Shown piece by piece: positions 24,871-59,262 of a stretch of DNA of 63,253 bases. The translations under genes and the position numbers were made by a program. Source of the DNA: a virus; IMG/VR virus record IMGVR_UViG_3300044981_000245, positions 1 to 63,253 of that record; one strand, written 5' to 3'. Each line of letters starts with the position of its first letter. Within the stretch, counting starts at the first letter, position 1. The notes beneath the pieces are model-generated. The model was not told the origin of the DNA. It saw only the letters and a program-made list of their open reading frames with translations, and did not search any database.

Positions 24871-27800
24871 ATGGCAGGTAGCGGGAACTATTTTTTGGAC
24901 ACGTACGGGCCGAGCGATACCGCTGCACCCGCTGCTGCCCCACAAACCGCTCCCGCGCAAAGTGCGCCCGCACCGGCTGCCGCTCGGGCCGCCGCGCCAC
25001 CGCCGAAGCCGACTGGGAACTACTTCACGGATACCTATGGCCCCAACGATGTCGATCAGCCGACGCTAGCCAAGCCGAAGGCTTCCGCGATTCACGACAC
25101 CATAACCAATCCGGCGCTAAACGGCTTTGAGAAGGGACGGCAAATAGGCTTCATCCTGCAGAGTCCGATGTATAAAGACGAGCAGGTTGCTAGTGCTATT
25201 GCGGAAGCCCAGCAGAAAATAGAACCGCGCCCGGAATATCTCCGACAAGCCGACGAGGTTTTTTCCAATGCGCACGGATGGCTGGGAGTGCTGGACGCAT
25301 ACGTCCACAACCCAAGAGCAGTTCTTGCAAACACCATCCAAGGACTGACTCAGGGCGGCATGGTAATGGGCGCGGCTGTCGCCGGGGGCGCCGCGGGTGG
25401 CCCCGAGGCTGCCGCAGTCAGCGCAGGCGGCGCAGCCTATTTGAATACATATGGCGAAACCATTCTGAACACCTTCGAAGCGCATGGTGTTGACCTGAGC
25501 GATAAAGATGCCGTGCTCGCCGCGATGCATGATCCGGCGCTTATGGCGGCCGCAGCGGCTGCGGGGCACAAAGCCGGTGTGCCTGCGGCGATTATCAACG
25601 CGCTTAGTTTCGGTATCGCCGGCCGGGTAGCGGGACCTGTGACTCGTATAGCTGGAGGCAAAGTTGCGGGCCGTGCAGCGGGCGCGGTTGGCGAAGTCGC
25701 GGCACAGGGCACCATTGGCGCGGGCGGCGAGGCTGCCACGGAAGCATCTCGAGGCGAAGAACTCAACCCGAATGCGATCACTCAGGCGGGGCTGGGGCAG
25801 GCCGCCGCTACAGCGCCGTTCATGGCGCATGGAGTGGTTTCCGATCCCTTGGCGCACGTTGATACGCGCGTAGTTGAAGCACACGCAGACATCATGTCGC
25901 AGGCCCAAGAGACGGCCGCTGCGGCCGTCAAGGCTCAGGGTGGCGACGCGCTGGATCAGACGGTGGCCGCCACGCAGGTCAATGCCGAGGTCGGTGCGCA
26001 CCATGACGCCGCGGCGGTGCAGGGTGCCCGAGACCAAGAAGCGCAGGCCCATGCGGATGCCTTGCAGGCTCACCAGGAGCAGGAAGCCCGAGACGCGGCC
26101 TTCGCCCAAGCCGAAGCGGAGAAGGGCGCCACGCCGGCGCAAGAAGCGCTCGCCAAAGAGAACGCATTTCAGCAGGCGGATGTCGACAACCAGAAAGAAA
26201 AGGACCAAGACTTTTCTGCAGCAAAGAATCAGGTGGGCGAGCAGGCCGTCGAAGCTGCCAAGACCGGTGAGGCCGGTGCCGAGAAGGGCGGGGCGAACGA
26301 GCCCAAGCCGACTTTGGCCGAGGCGCTGCCTCCAGAGCAGCTGGCGGCCCTGCAGGGCCTCAAGGCCCGCCGGGCGGCGGAAGCCGCCCAGCCGCCCGAG
26401 GAGACGGTACAGGAGCGCATGAGGGCACAGGCCAGAGGCACTCCTGACGACTTCCAAGAGCTGCCCGCTAAAGCTCCGGAGACGGCCGTGGCGCCGCCCG
26501 AGGAGGCCGAGCCTGAAACCATAGCCCCTCCCCCGGTTAAGCCCGCAGACCTTGCCGCTCGCAGGCAGGCAGAGCTTGACGCGAAGATGGCAGCAAAGGT
26601 TCGGGGGCCGGCCCCAGAAACCCCAATCGCCTCACCCAATGAGGTGAAAGCACCCCCTAATCGCCTCGGCGCCATCCGGGCAGCTGCGGAGAAACGGGCG
26701 GCATTGTCCTCAGAGCGTGCGGAGAATCCGGTCCGCGAGCCTGAGGGCTACGTGGCCCGCAATGCGGAGACGGGGGACGAAATCAAGCGCTTCCCCACGT
26801 TCGAGGAGGCTCTAGCGCACAAGCAGGCCAACCCGGACCACGACATTACGAAGTTCAAAGCCCCTGAGAATGACTGGTTCAGCGACCTTCGTTCGCGGCT
26901 GGCTATGCCGCATGACGAGGCGAAAGAGCATCTGTCAGGCGTATCAGATGCTCAAGGTGAGCGCGCATTCCAGGTCCATGAGTCGGCCACTGCCGACACC
27001 GTACCGCCGCTTCTAGCCCAGCAGATCAAGGAGCACATGGCTAAGGGCGGCCTGCCGCCCAAAGGCGCCTACAGCGAGGGCGTGGCGCATGTCTTTGCGG
27101 GCAGCCACGAGACCGGGGACAAAGAGGACCTTTTGTCCACAACTGTGCATGAGCTTGCCCACAAAGGCCTCGAGAGCTTCTTGGGTCCCGAACTCGGCCA
27201 CACCATGGACGGCATCTACCGCGATGTAAGGGATACGGCTTGGGCCAAGCGTCTCGTAGAGCGCAGAGGCATGGACACGAGCCGGGTGGATACCCAGCGC
27301 CTGGTGGCGAACGAGTACGCCGCACACATGGCGGAGAACGTCGCCGCGGGACGCGAAGTACACGAGGAGCTACCGGTCAAGGACCGCGTGGCCGGGCATT
27401 GGCAGCGCGTGGTCGACACTGTGCGCGCCGGGCTGCGCAAGATCGGCCTCGTCAAGCACTGGAACGACAATGACATCGCAGCTCTTATCCGGCAGGCGCA
27501 GGCGCACTCAGGCGGCGACCGCGTTGGCCGCGAAGGGACAGACTATAAACAGTCTGGGCCTCTCTTCTCGCTGCAGAATGACGACGACAATATCGCGCAG
27601 AATTTTGCTCCTGACCATCCGATCGCGCAGGCACACAAGCTGGCACGCACGATGGAAGAGCAGGCCAAGTACAACCCGGGCTTCATCCACGACCCTGCCG
27701 GATACATGAAGGAGAAGTGGGACGATACGCTGGGCTCCCGCCTCGCCTTTATCGGTCTACGCAATCTACCCGACTTCCTCAACGAGCGCACCCATGGCGC

Positions 27801-38161: not shown

Positions 38162-38823
38162 GCTGAGAACTCCGTAGTAGGATCGATTTCGGAAGGTTTA
38201 CGTGGAAGCACTATCGTAGGCGCTTTAGGCAGATCGTTCTTGATCGCGATCATTTCCGCAAGAAAGGTCTGCACTCCTGCGTCCAGCTTATCAAAGTACT
38301 CGGGGTCTGGATAGACCCGAATCTTAAAATCTGCAAGCCCGGGCCAATATGAGACGAAGTCCAGCCACTTGCGTTGCGACACCCAGAGCGCACCCTGACA
38401 CTGGGCGACATGCTCGGGCGGTAGGCGGTTCTTGATGAGGACTTCGATCTGCAGGTGCGGGAGCTTTGTCTTGATCTCAAGCATCCCGTCCTCGCCGATC
38501 AGCGAGTCGGGGCTGCAGCCGACATAGCCCATCGGTAGCTGGCGACGGATGAAGCCAACTTGGCGCAGCGGCTCGGCGTAGTCGAAGCTGAGACGCTCAC
38601 GCATCTCGCCCTCCATCTCGTGGCCGCGCTCCGTGTGGGCGTTGGAGAAGGAGTCCGCGGGCAGACCCGTGAGCTGCTCGCCGATGAGCTCCAGCATGTA
38701 TTTGCGGCGGGTTTTGCCCTCGCCGCCTGCGAGCATAGAGTGGAACGCGGAGGCGGTGGGGATACCCCGGCGGCACTCGCGCCACTCGGGCGTCCCTTGA
38801 GCACAGGTGAAGATTTCAATCAT
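38143..38823 (-). CDS. YqaJ/lambda-exonuclease-like recombination nuclease
   Basis: A 226-residue protein whose ATG overlaps the upstream stop. It has a GTPEWRECRRG N-terminus, a helix with an ERGHEMEGEMR segment, and the catalytic GCSPDSLI...LEIKTK block (Asp then Glu-x-Lys), typical of the YqaJ family. These 5'-3' exonucleases act with a single-strand binder or annealing protein in phage recombination. It is coupled to the DUF2815 SSB. Confidence 0.9.
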   Translation of the reverse strand: MIEIFTCAQGTPEWRECRRGIPTASAFHSMLAGGEGKTRRKYMLELIGEQLTGLPADSFSNAHTERGHEMEGEMRERLSFDYAEPLRQVGFIRRQLPMGYVGCSPDSLIGEDGMLEIKTKLPHLQIEVLIKNRLPPEHVAQCQGALWVSQRKWLDFVSYWPGLADFKIRVYPDPEYFDKLDAGVQTFLAEMIAIKNDLPKAPTIVLPRKPSEIDPTTEFSAWPTKS

Positions 38824-39307
38824 AGGACCGCCAATCAACAAAAGTGCCTGCGGGCTTGTCAAAAGGGTAGAAGCCCCACCCCGACCGTTTAGTGCCGGTC
38901 ATTACGACAGTCCAGAATCGATCTCTGTCGTAACCACCTAGGACGTAGTGCTCGAAATCACCCGAGCGAAAATGAAACCGGTGCTTGGTCACCCGGCGGA
39001 TGTACTTTAGCTCGCCGTGCTCGAACACCTTCTCCATATAATGTGCCAGCGGGAATGTCACAAACCACTGCCATGGATGGGTGTGTGATGCACGGTCGTC
39101 GTCCCCGCGCCAGAAGCGGTGCAGTCGTAGCGTGTATCCGTTGACGTACACAATCCAGCGGTCCAAATACCGCTCCTTCCCCACGTACACCGTCGAGATA
39201 TCCACGCCCCATCGGCGGTCCAAGAGGTCGAACCCCTTGAACCAGCCGACGGCACCGCCGCGCCCTCGCGGCGTGTACGTGAAGCTACTTACGCTAAAGC
39301 CGCGCAT
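38816..39307 (-). CDS. Cupin-like protein
   Basis: A 163-residue protein with strands carrying LRLHRF, a His-Thr-His-Pro-Trp-Gln-Trp motif, TFPLAHYMEKV and a later HRFHFRSGDFEHYV segment, so the two cupin-type metal-binding motifs are visible. Proteins of this shape are common in phages and annotated only as cupin-like. Overlaps both neighbours. Substrate unknown; a sugar or nucleotide role is possible because an RmlB-like gene lies two genes upstream. Confidence 0.7.
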   Translation of the reverse strand: MRGFSVSSFTYTPRGRGGAVGWFKGFDLLDRRWGVDISTVYVGKERYLDRWIVYVNGYTLRLHRFWRGDDDRASHTHPWQWFVTFPLAHYMEKVFEHGELKYIRRVTKHRFHFRSGDFEHYVLGGYDRDRFWTVVMTGTKRSGWGFYPFDKPAGTFVDWRSYD

Positions 39308-39825
39308 TCCGCGATGACTTTGCCGTAGTCGGCAACAGCAATGCTGGCAACGATCGGCGGCTTGTCTGCGCCCGCGTACTTCTGCAGTATCGCAACAGGC
39401 TTTTCCTTGCTGCCGAGGCGCGTCGACGCTTGAGTCAACGCGGTGCGCAGGTCGGAGTCGGTGTAGACCTTCTCGTCAGCTGAAGAAGATAGCGATGCCG
39501 AGGGTGTCTCCACCACCGCAGAGGCTGGAGCTTGCGGTTCCGGCGCTGGCGCGGCTTTCGCTGGGCGGCCGCGGCGCTTTGCTGGCGCTTCCGCAGTCAC
39601 AACCGGCGCAGTCGACGGCGCATCCGTGGCCGTGGCAGGGGCAGCCGCGTTCATGGGGGTCGTTACTGGTTCTGCGCATTCTGCACCATTGAGTAGGAAA
39701 TTCAGATAAATCGCCGCATCGCTGGCGATCTGCGCCGCGGTCTGCGACGTCGAGGGGCCAAAGCCGCACGCGTTCACCGCCAAACGAAGCGCCTCCAGAC
39801 GCAATTGAGAGAGTTCTGCAGCCAT
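39289..39825 (-). CDS. Hypothetical protein with AT-hook-like linker
   Basis: A 178-residue protein. Helical N-terminus (about 50 residues), an Ala/Pro/Thr-rich linker with KRRGRPAKAAPA (AT-hook-like), and a C-terminal folded domain of about 65 residues with DLRTALTQASTRLGSK and an IVASIAVADYGKV end. The C-terminal domain resembles small helical domains in phage single-strand-binding or recombination regions. A DNA-binding role is inferred from the hook and the neighbours. The ATG overlaps the upstream stop. Confidence 0.65.
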   Translation of the reverse strand: MAAELSQLRLEALRLAVNACGFGPSTSQTAAQIASDAAIYLNFLLNGAECAEPVTTPMNAAAPATATDAPSTAPVVTAEAPAKRRGRPAKAAPAPEPQAPASAVVETPSASLSSSADEKVYTDSDLRTALTQASTRLGSKEKPVAILQKYAGADKPPIVASIAVADYGKVIAECAALA

Positions 39826-40835
39826 TACTTTGACTCCTGAGTCATTAACCAATGAGGGTTCTCTAACGACCAGCGCGTAATCTCTTCCACCGCGGTCTTG
39901 ATCTTAATGCGGGGCTCCCACCCCATAGCAGCCATTTTGCTACCGTCGAGCGCGTAACGCAAGTCATGGCCGGGGCGATTGCCCGGCCGGGCGCCATCAA
40001 CTAGCAGATATTTTAGCTCCTGCGCGACAGGCCAAGACATGGCGTCGGTGATCCATTTAGCCAGAGTGAGATTGTCGACCTCTTCTTTGCCGACAATGTT
40101 GTACTTCTCACCGGGGACGCCTTTGCTTAGCAGGAACATGACCGCGTCCGCCACGTCCTCGGCGTCGATATAGAACCGAGTACCTGGTGTCCCGCGATCC
40201 TTGTTGGCATGAATGACGACCGTCTTGCCGTCACGGATCTTGGCGATCGTGCCGGGGATCATCTTCTCGGGGTGCTGGCGTATACCACAGACGTTCATGG
40301 TATGGGTGATAATGACGGGCACGCCGTAGGTGCGGAAATAGGAGAACGCGAGCTGCTCGCCTCCGGCCTTGGTGGCCGAGTACGGGTTGCTGCAGCTGTA
40401 ACGGTCGTCCTCTTTATACTTCACGCCCTCGGGAGCGGGGCCGAAGACCTCGTCCGTGGAAAAGTAGATGAACATCTGCGGCTTTGTCTTGCGGGCGAAC
40501 TCAAGCAGATTGCAGGTGGCAACGACATTGTCCTGCACGAACTCCATAGGCAGTGCTATGCTGCGGTCTACGTGGGTCGCCGCGGCAAGGTGCACGATGC
40601 AGTTGTGATATCCGAGCTGCTCAATCAGAAGATCGTTCATCGGCGCGCGCAGGTCATGGTAGAAGAACTTGACGCGCGGATTCTTTACAGCACCGACCTC
40701 GGCCAAGCGATTCAGATTGCCTGAACCGTCGAGGCGGTCGATCAGCGTCATCTGCGCGTACGGATAGAGCTCCAGGATATAGTCGACGAGGTGGTGGCCG
40801 ATGAAGCCGGCGCCGCCCGTGATGAGGATTCTCAC
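39825..40835 (-). CDS. dTDP-glucose 4,6-dehydratase-like SDR epimerase
   Basis: A 336-residue extended short-chain dehydrogenase. The NAD-binding motif GGAGFIG is at residues 7-13; FSTDEVFG near residue 125 and YSATK near 152 carry the Thr/Asp-Glu and Tyr-x-x-x-Lys catalytic residues. The Thr-Asp-Glu triad is typical of RmlB-type 4,6-dehydratases, which make 4-keto-6-deoxy sugars from nucleotide sugars. It may feed the glycan cassette further upstream (46363-52977). GTG start overlaps the preceding gene. Confidence 0.88.
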   Translation of the reverse strand: MRILITGGAGFIGHHLVDYILELYPYAQMTLIDRLDGSGNLNRLAEVGAVKNPRVKFFYHDLRAPMNDLLIEQLGYHNCIVHLAAATHVDRSIALPMEFVQDNVVATCNLLEFARKTKPQMFIYFSTDEVFGPAPEGVKYKEDDRYSCSNPYSATKAGGEQLAFSYFRTYGVPVIITHTMNVCGIRQHPEKMIPGTIAKIRDGKTVVIHANKDRGTPGTRFYIDAEDVADAVMFLLSKGVPGEKYNIVGKEEVDNLTLAKWITDAMSWPVAQELKYLLVDGARPGNRPGHDLRYALDGSKMAAMGWEPRIKIKTAVEEITRWSLENPHWLMTQESK

Positions 40836-46128: not shown

Positions 46129-46366
46129 CTAAAACCCCCAGCGCCGCCTTGCAGCGCGTTATGTCGGCAGCAATGGCCGACTCGCAATGCCCTGTCTGTA
46201 GCCAGTTGAGCGCTCCGCCGAGAATCTTCGCCCAGCGCGCGGGCGCGGGCTTGCGCAGCTCAAGGCCGCACATGCTGCTGATGGTGATATCGTAGTCGCG
46301 CCAGATCCACGAGCACGCGAGGATATCGACGCTACGCGCCAGCACCAAGAAATACGTGTTGTTCAC
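46121..46366 (-). CDS. Small hypothetical protein
   Basis: An 81-residue protein with GTG overlapping the cupin stop (GTGA). It has a hydrophobic start with Trp-Ile-Trp, a central LRKPAPARWAKILGGALNWL helix and three Cys. It is not clearly membrane-bound. Unknown function. Confidence 0.6.
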   Translation of the reverse strand: MNNTYFLVLARSVDILACSWIWRDYDITISSMCGLELRKPAPARWAKILGGALNWLQTGHCESAIAADITRCKAALGVLGG

Positions 46367-46749
46367 GTCGACTGGCCGAAGGGATTTACGCTGGGCTCGA
46401 TGCGCACGCAGTCATTGGGGTCATCGTGCGAGCTGGCCTCGATAATGATGCCACCCTCCGGCGACAGGCACTTGACGCGGTGCACGGTGCGCGGGTCGAG
46501 CGATATGACGCCACCAGGACCCATGCTGTTGTTGCCCTGCGCCTTCTCATCATCAAGCGAGTACCAGTCGATCTCGAACCGGCCCTTGAGGATCACGAAG
46601 GTCTCGTGTTTCTTCTCGTGGTAGTGCCGGGAGCTGATGCGCACGCCGTCGTATTGGAGCAGCTTGCAGCAATAGCGCTCGTCGTTGTGGAGGATGATTT
46701 CCCTGCCCCACATCTTGGGCACCTTGTCAATCACTAAACCGTTGCTCAT
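46363..46749 (-). CDS. Cupin, sugar-phosphate isomerase-like
   Basis: A 128-residue single cupin domain. MWGREIILHND, then SSRHYHEKKHETFVILKGRFEIDW (first cupin motif with three His and Glu) and GGVISLDPRTVHRV (second motif) resemble the C-terminal domain of type II mannose-6-phosphate isomerase/GDP-mannose pyrophosphorylase. The ATG has AGGAG six bases upstream. The frame is open upstream to 46872 and contains His-Cys-Asp-His ... Cys-Tyr-Asp-Cys, so a longer form with a zinc-binding N-terminus is possible. It closes the glycan cassette. Confidence 0.75.
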   Translation of the reverse strand: MSNGLVIDKVPKMWGREIILHNDERYCCKLLQYDGVRISSRHYHEKKHETFVILKGRFEIDWYSLDDEKAQGNNSMGPGGVISLDPRTVHRVKCLSPEGGIIIEASSHDDPNDCVRIEPSVNPFGQST

Positions 46750-46861
46750 CTCAGTCTCCTGCTGCGGTACATGCGGCTTCACGGGCCGCGAGTGGCAATC
46801 GTAGCACAGCCCGTCGGGGGCCGAGTTCCTATGATCGCAGTGTAAAGGATGTCGGGGGTTC

Positions 46862-47035
46862 TTAGCTAGCACGTCCGGTGCCTAAGCACTTGGGGCAGCC
46901 ACTGCCCTGCTGCGCAGTGCGCCACGCCTTCTTGCCGTTGTCAAGCTCCACGCGCTCAAGCTCGGGCTCGGTCTCGCGCGTGACGCCGCGGCCTTTGCAA
47001 AGCGGACATTCTTTTACTCGCTCGGCGGTTCCCAT
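46862..47035 (-). CDS. Small zinc-finger protein (DnaJ-type CxxCxGxG)
   Basis: A 57-residue protein starting inside the end of the GT9 gene. It has Cys-Pro-Leu-Cys-Lys-Gly-Arg-Gly and Cys-Pro-Lys-Cys-Leu-Gly-Thr-Gly, two CxxCxGxG units as in the DnaJ zinc-binding region, which together hold one zinc. Its stop lies within the possible N-terminal extension of the cupin gene. Function unknown. Confidence 0.65.
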   Translation of the reverse strand: MGTAERVKECPLCKGRGVTRETEPELERVELDNGKKAWRTAQQGSGCPKCLGTGRAS

Positions 47036-48114
47036 TTGGGCGCGGTTCCTCTCATACAATTTTGCAATGTGTCCCAAGTCCACTCGGGAAGAATCTCGGC
47101 CACGCACTGAGCGGTGCCGTATGTGTCGTGCCGGCGGCAGCCCTCGAACGTTGGCAACATTTTGTGGCAAGCCAAAACCTCGTTCTTCCCGCGGCCGGGG
47201 CACTCGGTCTTGGGTGCCCACATGGGCGTACAATTGACCCAATCGCGCGGCAGGTTCTCAATGGTGCTGTGCGATAAGAATACGATCTTGGGCATCGGAT
47301 AGAAAGCCGCCGCAGACATGACGCCGGTCTCGGGACCCACCACCACATCAGCGATCTCCATCATGGTGAGTGTCTGGCGGATGGAGTGCTTACCTGATGC
47401 GCACCAGATGCGAGGTTTGGCCTCGTAGCCGCGCTCGAACTCAGCACAGCTGGCATCCCCGGCAGTTACCACGCCCCACGTCGGGTAGTGCTGCAGCAGG
47501 TGATCCCAGATGACCGCCGTGTGCGGATAGACCTTGTGCGTGCGGCTTGAGCCGCCAAGCACCCACATGATCAGCTTGTCAATGCCGGCCTTCCGCATAC
47601 GGGCGCGCTCTTGGTCGCGCCACTTGATCTCGGCTTCCGTGGGGTAGAACTTGAAGCTGGGTACGTACTTCACGCCGGCGATCTGGTGCTGAAACTCCAC
47701 GTAGTTGTGATTCATGAAGATATGGCGCCCCTTTGGGCTCCAGCCGAACTTCACATTGCCAGGGCCAACCAGCAAGTTAGATTCCGCGGATTCCGTGAGG
47801 TTGATCCAAAAATCGAAGCGCTTGTTACCCGGAGCGCCGTAGAGCTCGAACCACACCCAAAGCCGGCCCAGTTCGCCGATGGCGACTTGGTTCGGAGTCT
47901 GCACCACGAGCCGATCGATATTCGGGTCGTTCATCACGACTTCACTGCCCGGAAATTGGCACATGAAAGTGACGTGGTAGTTCTCTCTCTTTAGCTGATT
48001 GACGATGCTGACGGCTTGCACAACATCACCAAAAGCTCCGTACCTGACCACGCAGGCTGTCTTTTTGTTCTCAGGATTAAGAATATTCCTGTGTGAAAAT
48101 TTATGTATTGACAT
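47014..48114 (-). CDS. Glycosyltransferase family 9-like (heptosyltransferase fold)
   Basis: A 366-residue GT-B protein. The N-terminal CVVRYGAFGDVVQAVSIVNQLK resembles the acceptor-side motif of GT9 enzymes; WVLGGSSRTHKVYP and VVGPETGVMSAAAFYPMPKIVFLS form the donor-binding domain. GT9 members add heptose or similar sugars to lipopolysaccharide. The start overlaps the stop of the HNH gene by 14 bases. Acceptor and sugar are unknown. Confidence 0.85.
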   Translation of the reverse strand: MSIHKFSHRNILNPENKKTACVVRYGAFGDVVQAVSIVNQLKRENYHVTFMCQFPGSEVVMNDPNIDRLVVQTPNQVAIGELGRLWVWFELYGAPGNKRFDFWINLTESAESNLLVGPGNVKFGWSPKGRHIFMNHNYVEFQHQIAGVKYVPSFKFYPTEAEIKWRDQERARMRKAGIDKLIMWVLGGSSRTHKVYPHTAVIWDHLLQHYPTWGVVTAGDASCAEFERGYEAKPRIWCASGKHSIRQTLTMMEIADVVVGPETGVMSAAAFYPMPKIVFLSHSTIENLPRDWVNCTPMWAPKTECPGRGKNEVLACHKMLPTFEGCRRHDTYGTAQCVAEILPEWTWDTLQNCMRGTAPKWEPPSE

Positions 48115-48562
48115 GCGCGCTGATCTTCTTTTCTTTTATTAAGGAAACAAGTGCTCGCGAAACACCGAATCTTTTTGATATCGCCTCGTGTGTGCCTGCC
48201 GCTAAAAATATTTCTCGCCGTTGCACGTTTGTAAGCTTGGAACGCCAGTGCTGTTCGCCGCGCGGCGTGCGCTCTCTAGCTACGCGATCGTCGATGTTGT
48301 CTTGAACGCTGCCCAGCAAAAGATGCGCCGGATTGCAGCACTTAGGCGTATCACAGCTATGACGCACGACAGCCCCGGTGGGCTCTCCTCGGAATAGCGC
48401 GTAGCATACCCTGTGCGCCTTAAGAACCTTGCCGCTCGCCCGATCAAGCATGGCGCCGTATCCGTCCTTATCGAGCCATCCATTCCACAGCCAGCAGTGG
48501 CCGAGTCGGACGTCCACATGCCGCCAAAAACGCACTAATAGGCTTTGCCGAGGACGCCCCAT
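48101..48562 (-). CDS. HNH homing-type endonuclease with helix-turn-helix
   Basis: A 153-residue protein. The HNH core includes GHCWLWNGWLDKDGYG, AHRVCYALFRGEP, then His-Ser-Cys-Asp and CCNPAHLLLGSVQDN. The C-terminal helix-turn-helix (AISKRFGVSRALVSLIKEKK) should give DNA specificity. It is a free-standing homing-type gene inserted between the C-methyltransferase and GT9 genes with minimal overlaps, so it interrupts the glycan cassette without breaking it. Confidence 0.88.
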   Translation of the reverse strand: MGRPRQSLLVRFWRHVDVRLGHCWLWNGWLDKDGYGAMLDRASGKVLKAHRVCYALFRGEPTGAVVRHSCDTPKCCNPAHLLLGSVQDNIDDRVARERTPRGEQHWRSKLTNVQRREIFLAAGTHEAISKRFGVSRALVSLIKEKKISAHVNT

Positions 48563-49725
48563 TAGCTGAAAACCTCCAATCTGGGAATCGCAGTCACGAA
48601 CGAGCCTTTGTACCCGCGGTTGCGCAGGCGCTTCACGGCCTCGTCCTTCCAGGTCCAGCAGAGCAGCAGGATGTAGTCCGGCTCCGCGGCAATAAGATCC
48701 TCTTCGCTCACAATGGGCAGCGCGGTGCCTGGCGCCAGCTTACCGATCTTCTCAGGGTTGACGTCGCCGATCATGTGAAGCGCATGGTGCTGCGCCCAAT
48801 ACGGCTTGCAGTAGTTGAGGAAGGTGTTGCCCCGCGCGGCTGCGCCATATGCGCAGACCTTGAGTCCTGCGAACTCGGCGGTCGTCATGAAATTGTTGAA
48901 GTTGAGACGTACCGCGTAGACACGTTCGCGAAAGGCTACCAGATCCAGCGCTTCTTCGGCTTCTATCTGCGCGTTGACACTATCGTGGACGGAGCAGCTC
49001 GTGCCGATGAAAACCCGCAGGCTGCCGCCGTGCGTCGGCAAATGCTCGACGTCATAGACACACAGCCCAAACGCCGGAAGCGCGTTCTGCAAGGCCTGAA
49101 CGGTGAGGTAGGAGTAGTGCTCGTGATAGATCGTGTCGAACTGTGTCTGGTTTATCGTAGTCACGAGATTCGGGAATTCAAGGATGGCCGTACCGTTGAG
49201 CTTGAGTACGCGCGATACGGCACGGAAGAAGTCCCGCAAGTCGGGGATCTGAGCCACGGTGTTCAGCGCGATGATGATATCCGCCGGAAAGAGATCGTAA
49301 GACAGTTCACTGTTGAAATAGGCTTTGATCGTGGGGACGGTTGAGGGGATGCCGGTTGGATCCACGCCGAGGACACGGCCTTTTTGGAAGTTGCGCAGCA
49401 GGTACCCATCGTTGCTGCCTGCTTCAATGATTCGACTGTCCTCGGTCAGATTGAAACGATTCTCTATTTGCCGGGCTAAACTCTCAACGTGATCAAGCCA
49501 TTGCTTGGAGCCCTTACTAGAATGTAAAGCATATTTAACATTGAAGATTGAGTCCGGCGGCACGTCCACCGTGAGCTGGAGCAGGCTGCACTTGGTGCAC
49601 TGCGCGATTGCCAGCGGGTACCGCGCGGCGATGTGCGTGCCGCTGAAGAAGTCATTCGACGGTGGCTGTTCGCCCAAGTCGAGGATGGGGTAGTTGAGCG
49701 GCGCGGCGCAGAGGCGGCATTTCAT
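48562..49725 (-). CDS. C-methyltransferase for deoxysugars (TylCIII/NovU-like)
   Basis: A 387-residue SAM-dependent methyltransferase. The N-terminal zinc domain has MKCRLC and Cys-Thr-Lys-Cys; the SAM motif is IIEAGSNDGYLL; the YHEHYSYLT motif holds the catalytic His/Tyr region; the C-terminal domain has AYGAAARGNTF and a D-x-NPEKIGKLAPGT block. This three-part layout is that of sugar C-3 methyltransferases acting on 4-keto-deoxy nucleotide sugars. It fits an RmlB-type dehydratase product. The ATG overlaps the TylF-like gene stop. Confidence 0.88.
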   Translation of the reverse strand: MKCRLCAAPLNYPILDLGEQPPSNDFFSGTHIAARYPLAIAQCTKCSLLQLTVDVPPDSIFNVKYALHSSKGSKQWLDHVESLARQIENRFNLTEDSRIIEAGSNDGYLLRNFQKGRVLGVDPTGIPSTVPTIKAYFNSELSYDLFPADIIIALNTVAQIPDLRDFFRAVSRVLKLNGTAILEFPNLVTTINQTQFDTIYHEHYSYLTVQALQNALPAFGLCVYDVEHLPTHGGSLRVFIGTSCSVHDSVNAQIEAEEALDLVAFRERVYAVRLNFNNFMTTAEFAGLKVCAYGAAARGNTFLNYCKPYWAQHHALHMIGDVNPEKIGKLAPGTALPIVSEEDLIAAEPDYILLLCWTWKDEAVKRLRNRGYKGSFVTAIPRLEVFS

Positions 49726-50393
49726 TCGAACACCGTAAACCAGCGATTGGTGATGGGGTCGACGGAACACTCGTACCTGAGCTCGCGGATAGCTTGGCGC
49801 GCGCCGTCGAGGCCGCCGAAGGGGCCGCCAGCCGTGTCGTCGAACCACATGATTCCGCCCTTCGCCATCAAGCCCTCTAGCGCGATGCATGTCTCAAGCG
49901 TCGAGCGGTAGGCGTCGACGTCGACGTGCGCGAAAGCAATGGGCGCAGGCGGCATTGGCTCGCACGGAAAGATGCCCTTGACAATCGTCGGATACTTGCC
50001 CAAGAAACCGCGCACGCGCGCCATGCCCGTCTTGAGCTCGCCCACAGGCACTCCATGATTGGCGTCCTCGGCGTCCTTGTACGGCATGCCCTCGAAAGTG
50101 TCGTAGAGGTAGACCGGACGTCCCTGCGTCTTGGCAAGCGCGCTCAGGTGATGCGCGGTGCCGCCCCAATACACGCCGACCTCGACGAAGCAGCCCTCGG
50201 GCGCGGTCGCAGCCATCTCGATCATGGGCACGATCTCCCACGGCTCGAGGCAGCACGGCATGCAGTGGCCGCCGCCACCGTGGATCTTGTGGAGGCGCAT
50301 TGAAGCATCAGTGTTGCGCTTGAGCTGCGCCAGCGAGGTTGACCCGTTGTGCAGCGCGGTGAAGCCCTCGACGCCGATGTTGATGGGAATCAT
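49722..50393 (-). CDS. TylF-like O-methyltransferase
   Basis: A 223-residue protein. FVEVGVYWGGTAHHL (SAM-binding), VYLYDTFEGMP and a HVDVDAYRSTLE motif (the Asp-x-Asp metal site) are typical of the macrocin/TylF sugar O-methyltransferase family. The start at 50393 follows the upstream stop by five bases; longer forms lie in another gene. It should add methyl groups to sugar hydroxyls. Confidence 0.85.
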   Translation of the reverse strand: MIPINIGVEGFTALHNGSTSLAQLKRNTDASMRLHKIHGGGGHCMPCCLEPWEIVPMIEMAATAPEGCFVEVGVYWGGTAHHLSALAKTQGRPVYLYDTFEGMPYKDAEDANHGVPVGELKTGMARVRGFLGKYPTIVKGIFPCEPMPPAPIAFAHVDVDAYRSTLETCIALEGLMAKGGIMWFDDTAGGPFGGLDGARQAIRELRYECSVDPITNRWFTVFE

Positions 50394-50398
50394 GCCGC

Positions 50399-50962
50399 TC
50401 ACTTTAGCCGCCTGAACACAAAGAACAGCGCGTACTCTTCTTCGCGCGTGCACTTCTCGAAGCAGCACAGGTCCCAGTTGAATGCGAGCTTCTCCATGGC
50501 CTGCACGACGCGCGCGTAATTCACGTTCCACTTCTGGTCGGGGTCCGCGCCAGGCTCCGGCGCGATGTCGCGCTCAGGCTCAATGACCTTTGGCACTTGA
50601 TCCTCATCCGGCAAGTATAGAATCAAGCAGCCGCCCACTTTGACACAGTTCATCCAGTGCCGCAGCACGTCCGGCACTTCTTTGTACGGAAAGGTCTGCA
50701 GGAGGAAAGACGAGTAGACGTAGTCCCACACGCCGGCAGAGAAAGGTAGCTGGCGCGCGTCACCGCGGATGTTCGCCATCACCTTCATGCCCCAGCGCTC
50801 GGCGCCGTAGCCGTTGTCTATGCCGAGCACGAACTCGGTGTCGAACAGGCGCTCCTGACCGCAGCCAAGATCAAGGCCCTTGCCGGCGGTGTACGGGATT
50901 GCGCGCCAACGCGTTTTGGGCGTCTCATTGAAGGTATTGGGGCGCAGCGGGGACCATGTCAT
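50399..50962 (-). CDS. SAM-dependent methyltransferase
   Basis: A 187-residue class I methyltransferase. GLDLGCGQERLFD is the SAM motif, FVLGIDNG the acidic loop, GDARQLPFSAGVWDYVYSSFLLQ motif II/III, and VKVGGCLILYLPDED the post motif. It belongs with Methyltransf_11-type enzymes. Target unknown; neighbours suggest a sugar. The ATG overlaps the stop of a tiny membrane ORF. Confidence 0.8.
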   Translation of the reverse strand: MTWSPLRPNTFNETPKTRWRAIPYTAGKGLDLGCGQERLFDTEFVLGIDNGYGAERWGMKVMANIRGDARQLPFSAGVWDYVYSSFLLQTFPYKEVPDVLRHWMNCVKVGGCLILYLPDEDQVPKVIEPERDIAPEPGADPDQKWNVNYARVVQAMEKLAFNWDLCCFEKCTREEEYALFFVFRRLK

Positions 50963-51045
50963 CGGCGGTCACCCTCGTCGGGGCCGCCTAGCGAGAACAG
51001 CGCCCAGATTGCTAGGCCGCCGACTAGGAACAGAAAGAGCGTCAT
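50959..51045 (-). CDS. Tiny single-helix membrane peptide
   Basis: A 28-residue peptide: nearly all of residues 2-20 is a hydrophobic helix, followed by an acidic/Arg end. AGGA lies about nine bases before the ATG, and its stop overlaps the following methyltransferase ATG. Translation is plausible but unproven. Confidence 0.4.
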   Translation of the reverse strand: MTLFLFLVGGLAIWALFSLGGPDEGDRR

Positions 51046-51081
51046 GCCGTCATCCTGGTTGGGGCAGAATTCGCAGCTTAC

Positions 51082-51113
51082 ATAAAGAGAAAGCCGGGCG
51101 CAAGGCCCGGCTT
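51082..51113 (-). terminator. Rho-independent terminator of the beta-protein gene
   Basis: On the minus strand, AAGCCGGGC pairs with GCCCGGCTT (9 bp, 5-base loop; plus-strand arms 51091-51099 and 51105-51113), followed by TCTCTTT. It lies 27 bases after the stop of the 51140-51862 gene, and should end most transcripts of that gene while some read through into the methyltransferases. Confidence 0.88.
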
Positions 51114-51139
51114 CCGTGATCGACTTAAGTCGATTCTTC

Positions 51140-51862
51140 TTACCGCGTGACGAGGCCACCGGGGCTGAAGGTCAGTTCCAGTTCTCCGACATAGAGCTGT
51201 CCGGTATCGGTGCCCTTGGTCACGATCAGAACGTCGCCCGGCTGGATGGTGAGGCCACCATTTGGGCCGATCGGGAACACGTAGCCGCCTTGGGTGTTGG
51301 TGCCGACGCCGTTGGACACAACCACCGTGAACGTGCCGCCCGAGAGCTGCACGCACTGCGGGGTCAAGCCCGAGGTGCCCTGCGCCAGCGCCGTGCCGCT
51401 CACGCCGCCCGACTGGCCGGTCATGAAGGTCATGACGTTGAAGATCTGCACCACGTTAACGTTGGTCGCCGTCTGCGTGCTCGAGCCGTAGAACGTCCCC
51501 GTGCTGACGCCAGAGACGAAGTACGAAGGACCAGTCGCGGTGCCGAACACCTGAGCGTACTGGCTGATAAGGTAGAGCTGGAAGTAGTCACCACCGGCGG
51601 CCGTGACTTCAGTCGTGGTGGAGATGCCCTTGACCACGTACGGAATCGCGGTCAGTGACTTCAGCTGCTTATTGAAGCTCGTGACGAACGCGGCAGCCGC
51701 GGCGCCCTGAGAAACGGTGGCAGTACCGTTTGAGAAAAGCTCAAACTGTACTGGGTCGGTCTGGATGTACTGCGACTCGTCGTAGGCATACGAGCGAGAC
51801 TGGGCGGCGGTACCTACGGTAGCGCTTAACCCGAACTGAAAATTGGCATTGACGCCTGACAT
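51140..51862 (-). CDS. Virion-like beta protein, independently transcribed
   Basis: A 240-residue Thr/Ser/Gly/Val-rich beta protein without signal peptide, starting after an AGAGGA site. It begins with an SGVNANFQFGLSATVG segment and ends in a GDVLIVTKGTDTGQLYVGELELTFSPGG strand region, which resembles head decoration or tail subunit composition. It is the only gene of the minus-strand region with both its own -35-like promoter and a strong terminator, so high expression is expected. It sits inside the glycan cassette; being a glycosylated surface protein is a hypothesis only. Confidence 0.65.
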   Translation of the reverse strand: MSGVNANFQFGLSATVGTAAQSRSYAYDESQYIQTDPVQFELFSNGTATVSQGAAAAAFVTSFNKQLKSLTAIPYVVKGISTTTEVTAAGGDYFQLYLISQYAQVFGTATGPSYFVSGVSTGTFYGSSTQTATNVNVVQIFNVMTFMTGQSGGVSGTALAQGTSGLTPQCVQLSGGTFTVVVSNGVGTNTQGGYVFPIGPNGGLTIQPGDVLIVTKGTDTGQLYVGELELTFSPGGLVTR

Positions 51863-51899
51863 TGTGGATTCCTCTTATGAAAGTCGCCTCCCGACATCA

Positions 51900-51915
51900 C
51901 GGACGCTAGAGTCCG
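51900..51915 (-). promoter_or_regulatory. Leader hairpin of the beta-protein transcript
   Basis: CGGAC/GTCCG 5-bp inverted repeat around a six-base loop, lying about 40 bases upstream of the gene start and downstream of the proposed promoter. It could stabilise an abundant mRNA. Suggestive only. Confidence 0.4.
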
Positions 51916-51948
51916 CAGGGAAGGCTGCAAGAGGACTGCCGTTGGGGT

Positions 51949-51979
51949 TATGTAAACACCAAACGGCACTTATTGTCAA
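51949..51979 (-). promoter_or_regulatory. Sigma70-like promoter for the beta-protein gene
   Basis: A perfect TTGACA (-35) lies at 51979-51974 on the minus strand. Candidate -10 elements are TTTACA at 17-bp spacing or TACATA at 19-bp spacing. The -35 overlaps the end of the glycosyltransferase gene, giving a leader of about 80 bases before the ATG at 51862. Confidence 0.6.
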
Positions 51980-52977
51980 GTTCGGGGCTTGGACCCCTGA
52001 ATCAGGCTGTTCAGCATCCGGTACGTGTGGTGTGCGCCCTTCATCATGTCGATCGTCAAAGGATTGGCCGTAAACGCCTGATAAGCCCCGGGAACGTGGA
52101 GCAAATTATACCCGCGCAGCACGCAATAAGCGTCCACGATACTGGCCGTGAGCATCATCTTGTAGCTGGCCTTGGCCTCCGGCGGCAGTGTGTCGGTGGC
52201 AAGGTCCACGGCGTGCGCGAGCCACTCAAGCTGGTCGATATAGCTTTGCGGGCCGGCCGCCAATACCTCATCCGAGAGATGGCGCAGGCCGTACTTGCTT
52301 GTGTCGTCGTCGGGCTTTGGCGCCCGCATAATGAACTTGGCGCCGCCCTCGTAGAGGATCGCGCCGCGGAGCGCCGCCTCCATCACAATGAGATGGTCAA
52401 AACCGCTGCATAGATGGCGGATGGGAAGCTTGCGGCGGATCGTCTCGTTCCACAGGCCAAAGAACTGCGGACTGTCTATGGTGGTAATCACGGCTTGGGG
52501 AATGAACGCGCGCGGCACCTGCCGGAACTGCATGATGTTCTGAAAGCGTCCGATGATCTCAGTCGCTTCATTCACCTGCCAAGTGTCGCAGTAGAGTAGA
52601 GAGGCGCCCTCGGGTCCGAATGCTTTGAGCTCTGCATCCATGCGATTGACGAGCACTTCAAGATGGGTGTCTTCCGCCCAGAAGTCATGGCCGCCGAGCG
52701 TGATCGTATAGTCGTGACCTTTGTCATTCAGGAAACGCCAAGCGTAATCCATTGTGGGTATGCCGCGCCGCTTGAGCGACTCCGGCAGTTCCACAAGCAC
52801 AATGCGGTTGTCAGCAGCGAAAGCGTCGGCCCATATCTGCGTTGCCGCCGGATCCGTAGAATTGTCCACGGCATATAGCGTAAAGTCTCGGTAGTTCTGC
52901 TTAAGTACCGAGGATATGGCGCCTGCCAAATGCTGCGCGTTATTGTGGTTATTAATCCAGACGCCTACTCTACTCAT
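51976..52977 (-). CDS. Glycosyltransferase family 2-like (GT-A)
   Basis: A 333-residue protein. GVWINNHNNAQHLAGAISSVLKQNY and TLYAVDNSTD form the GT-A nucleotide-sugar binding start; TITLGGHDFWAEDTHLEVLV holds a GHDFW in place of a simple DxD, resembling GT2 proteins with a DDD/GxD variant. The C-terminal half is helical. It would transfer a sugar from a nucleotide donor; acceptor unknown. First enzyme of the glycan cassette. Confidence 0.78.
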   Translation of the reverse strand: MSRVGVWINNHNNAQHLAGAISSVLKQNYRDFTLYAVDNSTDPAATQIWADAFAADNRIVLVELPESLKRRGIPTMDYAWRFLNDKGHDYTITLGGHDFWAEDTHLEVLVNRMDAELKAFGPEGASLLYCDTWQVNEATEIIGRFQNIMQFRQVPRAFIPQAVITTIDSPQFFGLWNETIRRKLPIRHLCSGFDHLIVMEAALRGAILYEGGAKFIMRAPKPDDDTSKYGLRHLSDEVLAAGPQSYIDQLEWLAHAVDLATDTLPPEAKASYKMMLTASIVDAYCVLRGYNLLHVPGAYQAFTANPLTIDMMKGAHHTYRMLNSLIQGSKPRT

Positions 52978-53804: not shown

Positions 53805-54112
53805 GTGCCACCGTCTGTTTTACCCGATGCTCTATTTGGGCAATTGCTGTGGTGTTCGTACGGGTCGATTGAATTGCACCCCGTACATCGATAGTCGTCC
53901 GTCTCGTCAGCGGGGCGCAGGGCTTCGCGGTAGCCGTCGCACGTTGGGCAGTGCCCACGCCGCATCTTTGGAGAGTGGAAGCTGATGTTACGGTGGGCGT
54001 CGTACATTCTCTGTGCTATCCCGCGCAGCCGCTCGATTTCTCGAACGAGCTCGTCAGCCTCGCATACGCAAAATTCGGGCGCCGTGTGCGACGGATGCGT
54101 GCAGTATCTCAT
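53792..54112 (-). CDS. Hypothetical protein with two Cys/His clusters
   Basis: A 106-residue protein in ATGA overlap with the Rz gene. N-terminal Cys-Thr-His-Pro-Ser-His and Cys-Val-Cys, a helix (ELVREIERLRGIAQRMYDAH), then Cys-Pro-Thr-Cys and Cys-Thr-Gly-Cys with His-His and a final Cys. Probably two zinc sites. Function unknown. Confidence 0.65.
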   Translation of the reverse strand: MRYCTHPSHTAPEFCVCEADELVREIERLRGIAQRMYDAHRNISFHSPKMRRGHCPTCDGYREALRPADETDDYRCTGCNSIDPYEHHSNCPNRASGKTDGGTCSK

Positions 54113-54576
54113 TTGCCAGTCAGTGCGTCGCGCTCGGCACGCTCTTCGGTGCAGACGGCGTTGTCGTGGATTGCGGCGGAGATAAGGCCGTTGACAGCGC
54201 TATCAACGCTTGAGGGACCTGCAGCTGCACCCGCGGGGGCGGCGGTGGCACTTGGTAGCACGGCGTTGGGACAACGATTGGCTTCGTACTCGCGCAACCT
54301 AGCAGACAGAGCGTTAGACTGAGCGATGCCAGCAGTAATTTGTACATTGAGGGCGTCCTGTGAAGCTTTGAGTTTAGCGGTGTAATCCGCGTTCTGGTCT
54401 ATGATCTGATTGGAGGCTTCTTTGAGCGCTTCGGCACTCTCCGCTTTCACGTCGGCCGCGAAGGTGAGCGCTGCCTCGTATTTGTGGTAAGTCCAGCCGC
54501 CCCACGCGAGCGCCGCCGCGATCAGCACGCCGTAGATGCAGTCCTTGAGTCCGAAGGTTGCGAGGAGGGCGCCCAT
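54109..54576 (-). CDS. Rz: Inner-membrane spanin (Rz-like)
   Basis: A 155-residue protein. One N-terminal membrane helix (about residues 11-27) is followed by a periplasmic coiled helix rich in Ala, Glu and Lys. The Rz1-like lipoprotein gene lies entirely inside it in another frame, the classical spanin arrangement. It spans the periplasm to fuse inner and outer membranes in the last step of lysis. It is about 22 kb from the endolysin and on the opposite strand. Confidence 0.85.
   Translation of the reverse strand: MGALLATFGLKDCIYGVLIAAALAWGGWTYHKYEAALTFAADVKAESAEALKEASNQIIDQNADYTAKLKASQDALNVQITAGIAQSNALSARLREYEANRCPNAVLPSATAAPAGAAAGPSSVDSAVNGLISAAIHDNAVCTEERAERDALTGK
54120..54347 (-). CDS. 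Rz1: Outer-membrane spanin lipoprotein (Rz1-like), embedded
   Basis: A 75-residue protein fully nested in the Rz gene in a different frame. Signal peptide with lipobox Leu-Leu-Gly-Cys (Cys18) and a Pro-rich mature part (VPPPPPRVQ). This is the known pattern of the outer-membrane partner of Rz. Confidence 0.85.
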   Translation of the reverse strand: MYKLLLASLSLTLCLLGCASTKPIVVPTPCYQVPPPPPRVQLQVPQALIALSTALSPPQSTTTPSAPKSVPSATH

Positions 54577-54746
54577 TACTGCACCATAGCCGAGCGGCAC
54601 CAGAGCTTATGCTTGCCTTCGTCATTGTCCGGCAGGCGGTCGATAAACGTGCGACATTCGGCGTACGTGGGATAAACACCGATGAACTCGTCCATCCCGA
54701 TGCCGGTCACCACGTAGTGAAGCAAAAGCACGTAGACGGTCGTCAT
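54576..54746 (-). CDS. Small protein upstream of spanins
   Basis: A 56-residue protein with hydrophobic N-terminus (TTVYVLLLHYVVTG) and a mixed end with three Cys/Trp. The stop overlaps the Rz ATG and the start overlaps the upstream stop (ATGA). Probably real because of double coupling; function unknown. Confidence 0.6.
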   Translation of the reverse strand: MTTVYVLLLHYVVTGIGMDEFIGVYPTYAECRTFIDRLPDNDEGKHKLWCRSAMVQ

Positions 54747-56334: not shown

Positions 56335-57069
56335 TTAGTAGTCCTTTGCTTCCTGCTCGGTGATGAAGAAGTGAATGCCGTGTGAGCACTCGACGCGCGG
56401 ATCTGGGTCGTACTTGTCGGGATAGATCCAACCGGGGGCGTACGCAAAACATTTGTGCCTTGCGTCGCCCGTGCCGGAGACCACCAAGGCGTACTCTGCA
56501 CGGCACTTGCGCGAACCGTGGGCGTTGACACGCTTAGCACTCGCGGGAATGCGCAGCACCGCAATGCTGCCATCCGCCAGTTTCTTATACCCCACTATGT
56601 CCCCCTCAGGCAGGATACATTGCTGTTCCAGCCCTTTTGTGTCTGTAAGGTTGGCCTCGCACAGGTTGGCCCCGCACAGGTCGGCCCCGCGCAGGTGGGC
56701 CTCGCTCAGGTTGGCCTCGCTCAGGTGGGCCCCGCGCAGGTTGGCCCCGCGCAGGTCGGCCTCGCGCAGGTTGGCCCTGTGCAGGTTGGCCTCGCACAGG
56801 TCGGCCCCGCGCAGGTTGGCCCCGCTCAGGTTGGCCTCGCTCAGGTTGGCCTCGCTCAGGTTGGCCCTGCTCAGGTTGGCCCCGCACAGGTCGGCCCTGC
56901 TCAGGTTGGCCCCGCACAGGTCGGCCCCGCGCAGGTGGGCCTCGCACAGGTCGGCCCCGCGCAGGTCGGCCCCGCGCAGGTCGGCCCCGCTCAGGTCGGC
57001 CTCGCTCAGGTTGGCGAACGGTTTTAATTCAATCTCTCGCTGCGTGCCGTCGATGAATTTAATCAGCAT
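56335..57069 (-). CDS. Large pentapeptide-repeat protein with DUF5758-like tail
   Basis: A 244-residue protein with an AGGAG site nine bases upstream. After a short beta start (residues 1-18) there are 25 uninterrupted A(D/N/H)Lxx units (residues 19-143), predicting a right-handed square beta helix of about six turns. The C-terminal ~100 residues match the DUF5758 pattern: GYKK, LRIPASAKR, RKCRAEYALV and a final GIHFFIT with His/Phe. Some pentapeptide proteins mimic DNA and block gyrase; that role is not shown here. Long plus-strand frames over the repeat are shadows of its 15-bp periodicity. Confidence 0.88.
   Translation of the reverse strand: MLIKFIDGTQREIELKPFANLSEADLSGADLRGADLRGADLCEAHLRGADLCGANLSRADLCGANLSRANLSEANLSEANLSGANLRGADLCEANLHRANLREADLRGANLRGAHLSEANLSEAHLRGADLCGANLCEANLTDTKGLEQQCILPEGDIVGYKKLADGSIAVLRIPASAKRVNAHGSRKCRAEYALVVSGTGDARHKCFAYAPGWIYPDKYDPDPRVECSHGIHFFITEQEAKDY
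56641..57015 (-). repeat. 25 tandem 15-bp repeats encoding pentapeptides
   Basis: About 375 bp made of 15-bp units that encode the pentapeptides. On the plus strand the units read close to CTCAGGTTGGCCTCG or CGCAGGTCGGCCCCG. High DNA identity between units suggests recent expansion, and the unit number may vary between isolates. Confidence 0.85.
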
Positions 57070-58005: not shown

Positions 58006-58100
58006 CGACGCCCCGGCTCGCGAAAATAAGTCGGGTGCTGCTCTTTAGGCCAGTAATCGCGCCCAAGCAATTGATTAATTAAACGAGTGAAGGCTTTCAT
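58002..58100 (-). CDS. Tiny basic protein after the kelch gene
   Basis: A 32-residue protein (MKAFTRLINQLLGRD start) in ATGA overlap with the kelch gene stop and with the next tiny ORF. Contains Trp, His and Tyr; no motif. Function unknown. Confidence 0.45.
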   Translation of the reverse strand: MKAFTRLINQLLGRDYWPKEQHPTYFREPGRR

Positions 58101-59179
58101 GGTGTCTCCGTTAATTGCCAAATGTCGTTTACTTCAATACCTGCGTCCGTCGTGCCGTCAGTGAACCAGAGGGCATTATTGAGCGCAAAGGCGCTGGCGG
58201 CATGGCGTGCCAGCCACGGCGTGCTAGGGAGCTGCTGCCATGTCTCGCCGTCGGCGCTGTGCCAGACTTCATTTGAATAGCCGCCACCGTCGGCGCCCAT
58301 GCCAGCGAGAACCCACAATTGGTTACGATACACCAGCACATTGTGGTACCGCTTGCCAGACCACGCAGGGACAGCGTGCTGCGTCCACGTGATACCGTCG
58401 GCGGTAGACCAAACGTTGTTTGTGGCGACTCCTGCGGTGCCCAGGGAGTCATCTCCATACTGCCCGCCACCCACCACCCACAATTCGCCATTAAAGACCA
58501 CGCTGCCGCAGATCATGCCGAGGGCGGAGGGCATGTTGCCTATTTTGCTCCAATGCGTGCCGTCCGCGGACCGCCACACGTCCGAGTAATAGGTCGGCGT
58601 TGTGGGGTAGGGCACGGGTGCAGGTGTAATCGACTCGGGGAGCTGCTGGCCGCCCATGACGTACACAGCGCCATTGAAAGCAACAGCGTAATGCAACACG
58701 CGGTCACCCCACGGTAGGTCGCTGGCCTCTTGCGTCCAATTGATGCCGTCGGGCGAGCTCCAGGCATCGTGCATGTAATGCCCGTGATTAGAGTCACCAC
58801 CGAACACCCAAAGCTTGCCGTTGAAGGCGACCCATCCCGCCATATGGCGGCCCGTCCAAGGCGCAACCGTTAGCAGCGTCCAATTAACGCCGTCAGTGCT
58901 GCGCCACACCTCACTAGTAGTGCAGCACCCCCAATCGCCAGTCTCAGGAAAGTTCGGTGTGCTCTCAGCCTCATTGACGGTACGCCATCCGCCTAGCATA
59001 TAGGCAGCGCCATTGAGCACGACAATGCCCGCGCCATCACGGCCCGCGTATGCAGCGTGATCCGTTGCAAGTGTCCAAGTGTAGGATGGTGGCGTCGGCG
59101 GTGCTGACGGCGCGCTACTGCTACCGCCACCGCACGCACACAACGCAAGCGCTACTGCTGTCGGGATTAGTTGGCGCAC
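58097..59179 (-). CDS. Kelch-type beta-propeller lipoprotein
   Basis: A 360-residue protein starting at GTG nine bases after GAGGAG. The signal peptide ends in lipobox Leu-Cys-Ala-Cys (Cys16) followed by GGGSSS, with no Asp at +2, so outer-membrane sorting is expected. The mature part has kelch/galactose-oxidase-type blades: five (S/T)xDGxxW motifs, each after a VW(R/S) strand, and LWVFGG or YVMGG turns, probably a six-bladed propeller. A phage-made surface lipoprotein could block receptors or change the cell surface; this is inference. It ends an operon of tiny membrane proteins. Confidence 0.82.
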   Translation of the reverse strand: MRQLIPTAVALALCACGGGSSSAPSAPPTPPSYTWTLATDHAAYAGRDGAGIVVLNGAAYMLGGWRTVNEAESTPNFPETGDWGCCTTSEVWRSTDGVNWTLLTVAPWTGRHMAGWVAFNGKLWVFGGDSNHGHYMHDAWSSPDGINWTQEASDLPWGDRVLHYAVAFNGAVYVMGGQQLPESITPAPVPYPTTPTYYSDVWRSADGTHWSKIGNMPSALGMICGSVVFNGELWVVGGGQYGDDSLGTAGVATNNVWSTADGITWTQHAVPAWSGKRYHNVLVYRNQLWVLAGMGADGGGYSNEVWHSADGETWQQLPSTPWLARHAASAFALNNALWFTDGTTDAGIEVNDIWQLTETP

Positions 59180-59262
59180 TAGCAACGCTCCTCGCGATAC
59201 CAAAGCACCAACGTCAGCGCGGCAACGCCGACCCATATCAGCAAGTCAATTAGGAAAATCAC
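59179..59262 (-). CDS. Tiny membrane peptide upstream of kelch lipoprotein
   Basis: A 27-residue single membrane helix ending in Tyr-Arg-Glu-Glu-Arg-Cys. AGGAG lies seven bases before the GTG, which overlaps the upstream stop; its TAG shares a base with the kelch GTG. Translational coupling to the kelch gene is likely. Confidence 0.5.
   Translation of the reverse strand: MIFLIDLLIWVGVAALTLVLWYREERC

Follow-up and report, generated by a model that had tools for sequence, protein, structure and literature searches.

The minus-strand gene run at positions 46363-52977 of the uncultured virus record IMGVR_UViG_3300044981_000245 (63,253 bases, analyzed in full and denoted the window; G+C = 0.598) is tightly packed with genes for two glycosyltransferases, one GT2-like and one GT9-like, for three methyltransferases and for a cupin; the gene for an RmlB-type dehydratase lies elsewhere in the window. 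The question raised by this locus is what these enzymes modify. A sequence-only reading had proposed that they could make a methylated deoxysugar and transfer it to host lipopolysaccharide (LPS), a virion protein or DNA. The best reading of the data described here is a virion-glycosylation module with an exchangeable sugar supply. As for the particular proteins involved, we see about even chances that a class I S-adenosylmethionine methyltransferase (MT11) and the GT9-like enzyme (hereafter GT9) modify a head protein, with X240, the product of another gene in the run, as the likeliest acceptor.

The principal thread is provided by GT9, a heptosyltransferase-like protein of the GT9 fold (47014-48114, minus strand; PF01075, 26.9 bits against a cut-off of 22). 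In an alignment-based scan of uncultured viral contigs, 179 relatives were identified and the best 80, which are 40-68% identical, were kept. MT11 (50399-50962, minus strand; PF08241, 27.9 bits against a cut-off of 21.2) has homologues in 70 of these best 80 loci, and in 61 of the 64 GT9 loci that extend 1.3 kb or more upstream, it lies upstream of GT9, either directly or fused to it. The two proteins form a single open reading frame in 56 of the 70 loci, with MT11 as the N-terminal half; the fusion protein of the close relative L166 (549 aa) aligns end to end with MT11 (187 aa) and GT9 (366 aa) of the window. In the window virus, the halves of the fusion appear to be separated by the genes for a TylF-type O-methyltransferase, a sugar C-methyltransferase (CMT) and an HNH endonuclease, and in contig L164 they are parted by the CMT gene alone. 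Judging from L166 and from the prevalence of the fused form, fusion is likely to be the ancestral state. A TylF-type homologue is found beside MT11-GT9 in 14 of the 80 viral loci. A tblastn search of 50,697 phage records produced no match for the window GT9 and, for the fusion protein of contig L208, only weak matches to the methyltransferase. Given that the GT9 half is conserved in many uncultured viruses and unmatched in these records, it would escape routine annotation of isolates. Scans of viral contigs with single proteins (GT9, TylF, GT2, X240) retrieved no relatives because they required exact 8-residue words.

The gene for the major capsid protein (MCP) lies upstream of GT9, on the same strand, in all 37 loci that extend 5 kb or more upstream and in all 50 loci that contain an MCP. 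The usual gene order is a scaffold-like gene, MCP, an X240 homologue, small genes, sometimes TylF, MT11-GT9, and a conserved gene of unknown function (phrog_12985, approximately 317 aa). X240 itself (51140-51862, minus strand) is a head decoration-like protein and the candidate acceptor, homologous to the product of the gene directly downstream of MCP in the relatives: where a locus contains an MCP, 42 of the 52 matches to the X240 family fall at this position, which was recovered, besides the cassette copies, even before the search was iterated. X240 contains 23% serine plus threonine and is 41% and 38% identical to its homologues in L164 and L166, respectively. In L166, the X240 gene is duplicated in tandem (1296-2564). 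The structural model of X240 is beta-rich, with low confidence and weak fold matches, and a fold assignment was dropped given the poor quality of the model (pLDDT 55).

In the window virus, the MCP gene (12668-13597, plus strand; phrog_1357 major head protein, 8.9e-22) served as the head-gene anchor for comparison. Three close relatives are G001, G002 and G003 (86%, 78% and 82% MCP identity, respectively), and G002 (L165, L259), the contig ends of which overlap by more than 100 bases, is probably a complete genome, although the record is classed as linear. In all four viruses, X240 copies are found in the minus-strand cassette only, and none next to MCP. Because these are the only copies of X240, the genes for X240, MT11 and GT9 moved out of the head block as a group, and this joint move is our main argument, drawn from gene arrangement, for a functional tie between the three proteins. 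Among 754 proteobacterial genomes, two contain a strong match, one on a phage-like contig of a gammaproteobacterial bin and the other, from an alphaproteobacterial bin, next to HK97 head genes. In the latter, the gene for the fused MT-GT9 closely follows those for a portal, a protease and a capsid protein of the HK97 type (PF04860, PF04586, PF05065), and this locus is a second, unrelated head type with MT-GT9.

Alternatively, the glycosylated virion protein could be a tail fibre, a spike or the MCP itself, with X240 a mere neighbour. In L258, a tail-like protein (phrog_5939) is encoded between capsid and MT-GT9, and in L003, a podovirus of a different type, genes for a dehydratase, a glycosyltransferase and a methyltransferase lie between fibre-like and head genes, both of which are compatible with another virion acceptor. 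The departure of X240, a virion-type gene, from the head block together with the enzymes argues against such an acceptor, which we consider improbable. The locus in L003 (718-13495; also in L002) includes phrog_156 portal and phrog_283 MCP genes and, among structural genes, one for a dehydratase (62% identical) flanked by those for a glycosyltransferase and a methyltransferase.

The structural relationships of GT9 bear on a different alternative. A fold search with the GT9 model (pLDDT 91.5) retrieved 3tov (Z 24.7), WaaF (1psw; 23.3), WaaC (2h1h; 20.4) and TibC (19.4), as well as plant NDH-complex chains sharing this fold (18.9-19.6), with the remaining GT-B folds at 13.8 or below; a profile search of PDB with the GT9 family returned 3tov only (E 0.01), so the assignment was decided by the fold search. 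The family is characterized by the motifs RYGAFGD, GSSxxHK and GPETG, and D30 (the acid of the GD motif), K194 (the donor-site lysine) and E262-T263-G264 (the D/E-T/S-G loop) are invariant among the viral proteins; WaaC and WaaF share the GD-motif aspartate and the donor-site lysine. The donor-binding loop of LPS heptosyltransferases carries the histidine of DTGxxH, whereas the window GT9 has a serine, 77 of the 85 aligned sequences have an asparagine, and the GT9s of large-virus phages have histidine or tryptophan. Given that the loop is unlike that of the large-virus GT9s, the transferred sugar could differ as well.

Thus, the nearest solved relatives of GT9 include the LPS heptosyltransferases WaaF and WaaC, and the cassette might alter host LPS during infection, e.g., to prevent superinfection or the trapping of progeny by receptors; GT9 would then add heptose or a deoxysugar to the LPS core, and the other enzymes would finish the modification. 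This possibility is also in line with the ADP-heptose genes of many relatives and with the similar sets of dehydratase, CMT, GT9, HldE and cupin genes in large viruses, sets of a kind that has been interpreted as LPS modification (PMC7029224, PMC11671562). However, MT11-GT9 is embedded in the head-gene block of relatives with two head types, X240 moves along with it, GT9 scores only 19.8 bits against the LPS heptosyltransferase I equivalog TIGR02193 (cut-off 185.3), and neither an integrase nor a lipid-carrier step was recognised among the families scanned. We regard LPS modification, including this division of labor, as a serious but rather unlikely explanation.

The supply of the activated sugar appears to be the variable part of the virion-glycosylation module. 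The dehydratase (39825-40835, minus strand, GTG start) is, as the sequence-only reading had it, encoded separately from the run and RmlB-like, of the NDP-hexose 4,6-dehydratase type: it matches solved dTDP-glucose dehydratases at 1e-50 and the dTDP-glucose 4,6-dehydratase family TIGR01181 at 2.9e-74. Its TGGAGFIG, STDEVFG and YSATK stretches align with 1g1a, the TDE and YxxxK residues are retained in comparison with both 1g1a and 2hun, and a homologue in G002 is 66% identical. Given that its score falls below the TIGR01181 equivalog cut-off (250 bits versus 365.1), the assignment is provisional as to sugar and nucleotide. A second cupin-like protein encoded nearby (38816-39307, minus strand; phrog_4786, annotated as cysteine dioxygenase) has a 64% identical homologue in L164. 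The CMT (48562-49725, minus strand; PF08421, PF13489 and PF08484) is of the TcaB9/TylCIII type, matches solved sugar 3-C-methyltransferases (5t64) at 1.1e-43 and retains four cysteines and the YHEH stretch that are invariant in nine sequences; homologues are present in L164 and G002. The proposed methylated deoxysugar is supported only in part: it fits the dehydratase and the CMT, but a sugar nucleotidylyltransferase, a ketoreductase and a second epimerase were not found among the other frames of the window, and the heptosyltransferase-like GT9 and the ADP-heptose genes of many relatives do not point in that direction.

In L164 and L166, the cupin gene is located between those for the HldE kinase (TIGR02198, 3.7e-62) and the HldE nucleotidyltransferase (TIGR02199, 5.7e-23), and a PfkB-type (ADP-heptose-type) kinase is encoded in 12 of 22 GT9 records. 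In two of these records, L248 and L250 (1414-3821), consecutive genes for an HldE kinase, a GmhA-like SIS protein, an HldE nucleotidyltransferase and a GmhB-like HAD protein apparently comprise the full ADP-heptose pathway. The dehydratase is found in only two of the 22 records, the window and G002, both of which lack the kinase. This mutual exclusion (12 versus 2 records, no overlap; probability by chance approximately 0.19) is at most suggestive, and a switch of supply from heptose to deoxyhexose in the window virus and G002 is suggested. The large viruses L014, L049 and L072 encode dehydratase, CMT and GT9 in one run, most of them together with HldE kinase and cupin. We also considered wholesale capture of an O-antigen cluster from bacteria. 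The bacterial C-methyltransferases found are at most approximately 41% identical to the CMT, and 54 of 80 bacterial CMT loci in genomes contain a dehydratase homologue; capture is not supported because none of the 80 contains homologues of GT9, MT11 or TylF.

Among the three targets initially named, gene linkage speaks for the virion and host LPS is a possible target, whereas DNA is unsupported because no enzyme making a modifiable base was found. Some phage glycosyltransferases do act in DNA hypermodification, according to work cited in PMC12619734. Nevertheless, genes for a hydroxymethylase, a thymidylate-synthase-like enzyme or a TET-like enzyme were not found among 62 further frames (Pfam, E 1e-3) or the other frames scanned, and neither the GT9 fold nor the head linkage fits such a role, which makes hypermodification of the phage DNA by this cassette highly improbable.

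The acceptor, the donor, the order of steps, the linkage and the benefit of virion glycosylation we infer as follows. The activated sugar would be supplied by the phage or the host. In the relatives with HldE genes, ADP-heptose would be the donor; in the window virus, the dehydratase would make a 4-keto-6-deoxy hexose that the CMT then C-methylates. X240 would receive its first sugar from GT9, the GT2-like enzyme may lengthen the glycan, and MT11 and the TylF-type enzyme would methylate the sugars. The benefit could be, for example, shielding or alteration of the particle surface. In its most specific form, the scheme would have the fused MT-GT9 of the head operon, fed by a viral ADP-heptose pathway, O-heptosylate and methylate the head decoration protein, the window virus having swapped the heptose supply for the dehydratase and CMT while keeping acceptor and transferase; in this entirety, the scheme is tentative and more probably wrong than right in some part.

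Several considerations weigh against virion glycosylation. It is predicted here from genes and models, and X240 is a putative virion protein, the model of which is poor, as noted above. The enzyme genes might lie near those for the capsid only because they are expressed together late in infection. The identity of the donor as ADP-heptose is unsure, given the serine in the loop of GT9 and the asparagine in its family, compared to histidine or tryptophan in the large-virus phage GT9s, and an HldE kinase was not seen in 10 of the 22 records (some of them fragments) and is absent in the window virus. Finally, phage heptose and glycosyltransferase genes have been read by others, in the studies cited above, as LPS modification.

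With regard to the cassette as a whole, all genes named in the sequence-only reading are present at the places given, and all families except the cupin score above curated cut-offs; the TylF-type, CMT and cupin frames had been drawn too long at the 5' end, and the gene list lacked X240, the HNH endonuclease and a small CxxCxGxG protein. The run begins with the GT2-like glycosyltransferase (51976-52977, minus strand, 333 aa; PF00535 1.2e-6, 29.0 bits against a cut-off of 23.3), which has counterparts at the corresponding position in L166 (43%), L259 (43%) and L164 (cut by the contig end). X240 and MT11 are followed, all on the minus strand, by the TylF-type O-methyltransferase (49722-50402; PF05711 5.7e-10, 39.3 bits against a cut-off of 23; likely start 50402 or 50393), CMT (likely start 49725), the inserted HNH endonuclease (48101-48562; PF13392; phrog_1872, 1.5e-26), GT9, the small CxxCxGxG protein, which resembles a DnaJ-type zinc finger and has a homologue in L164 (open reading frame at approximately 46862-47035, ATG at 47035), and the cupin-fold, sugar-cupin-like metalloprotein (46363-46749; phrog_7851 2.4e-18; PF07883 1.3e-5, just below the cut-off; likely start 46749). 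In the cupin, the HxH motif, a glutamate and a second histidine are conserved in seven sequences. With the starts revised, MT11, TylF and CMT overlap by 4 bp each, and the next junctions (CMT-HNH, HNH-GT9 and GT9-zinc-finger-like frame) are overlaps of 1 to 22 bp, so that the run, to which X240 and the HNH gene also belong, looks like one transcription unit. Given the family scores and the gene order conserved in relatives, the cassette cannot be a matter of chance. Disabling active-site changes in related phages, sought for GT9, were not detected, with 39 columns invariant across 54 sequences; the intact motifs conserved in relatives support a predicted functional glycan cassette.

The left part of the genome carries, on the plus strand, terminase, portal, MCP and DarB-like giant protein genes, the latter encoding an antirestriction family protein of 1823 aa (24871-30342); DNA polymerase, helicase, primase and exonuclease genes are on the minus strand. 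The MCP is 51% identical to those of Vibrio phages, one of which is annotated with podovirus tags, and approximately 47% identical to that of Escherichia phage PTXU04; in a DNA-level comparison with phage records, the cassette region matched none. Just upstream of the cassette, a gene at 54109-54600 and a nested one at 54120-54347 (both minus strand) resemble those for an inner and a lipoprotein outer spanin. At higher coordinates, also on the minus strand, are genes for a pentapeptide-repeat protein (56335-57069) and a Kelch-repeat protein (58097-59236), unusual in a phage, with a lipobox-like LCACGG near the N-terminus.

GT9 contains four cysteines in the C-lobe (305, 316, 326 and 337), three of which are invariant and one is present in 80 of 81 sequences. 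Many WaaF-type GT9s also possess a cysteine cluster, and for this reason the TibC-like cluster was not used as proof. WaaF and WaaC act on LPS, whereas TibC, an enzyme with a GT9-like fold, heptosylates a protein and so provides a precedent for protein heptosylation (PMC4358343). The TibC/AAH autotransporter heptosyltransferases share the fold with GT9, and its four C-lobe cysteines may correspond to their metal finger, but the spacing differs (339, 342, 358 and 370 in the metal finger of TibC; PMC4358343), the GT9 model lacks the N-terminal beta-barrel (TibC aligns from residue 94), there is no autotransporter, and identity is approximately 9%. The CMT and the TylF-type enzyme have the domain set and catalytic stretch of TylCIII/NovU/TcaB9 and TylF of antibiotic clusters, but are distant, viral and here without the remaining deoxysugar genes.

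Phage virion glycosylation is already a known kind of modification: the capsid and tail tube of mycobacteriophages are glycosylated (Freeman et al. 2023, as cited in PMC12619734), and phage-encoded glycosyltransferases are thought, in that account, to modify the phage's own particle. Here, by contrast, a GT9-fold enzyme occurs either as a fusion with a methyltransferase or alongside one, accompanied by ADP-heptose or dehydratase genes, in podovirus-like metagenomic genomes. An ADP-heptose-linked, methyltransferase-fused GT9 in a head operon was not found in the 50,697 phage records or in the open-licence papers searched. By default, DNA or host LPS is usually taken as the target of phage glycosyltransferases; in this case, the fusion, its position in the head operon of two head types and its joint move with a head protein speak for the particle, and with one enzyme and one candidate acceptor named, the question is open to test. 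Taken together, these observations suggest that the shell protein of these viruses carries a methylated sugar, which is probably either a heptose or a deoxysugar.

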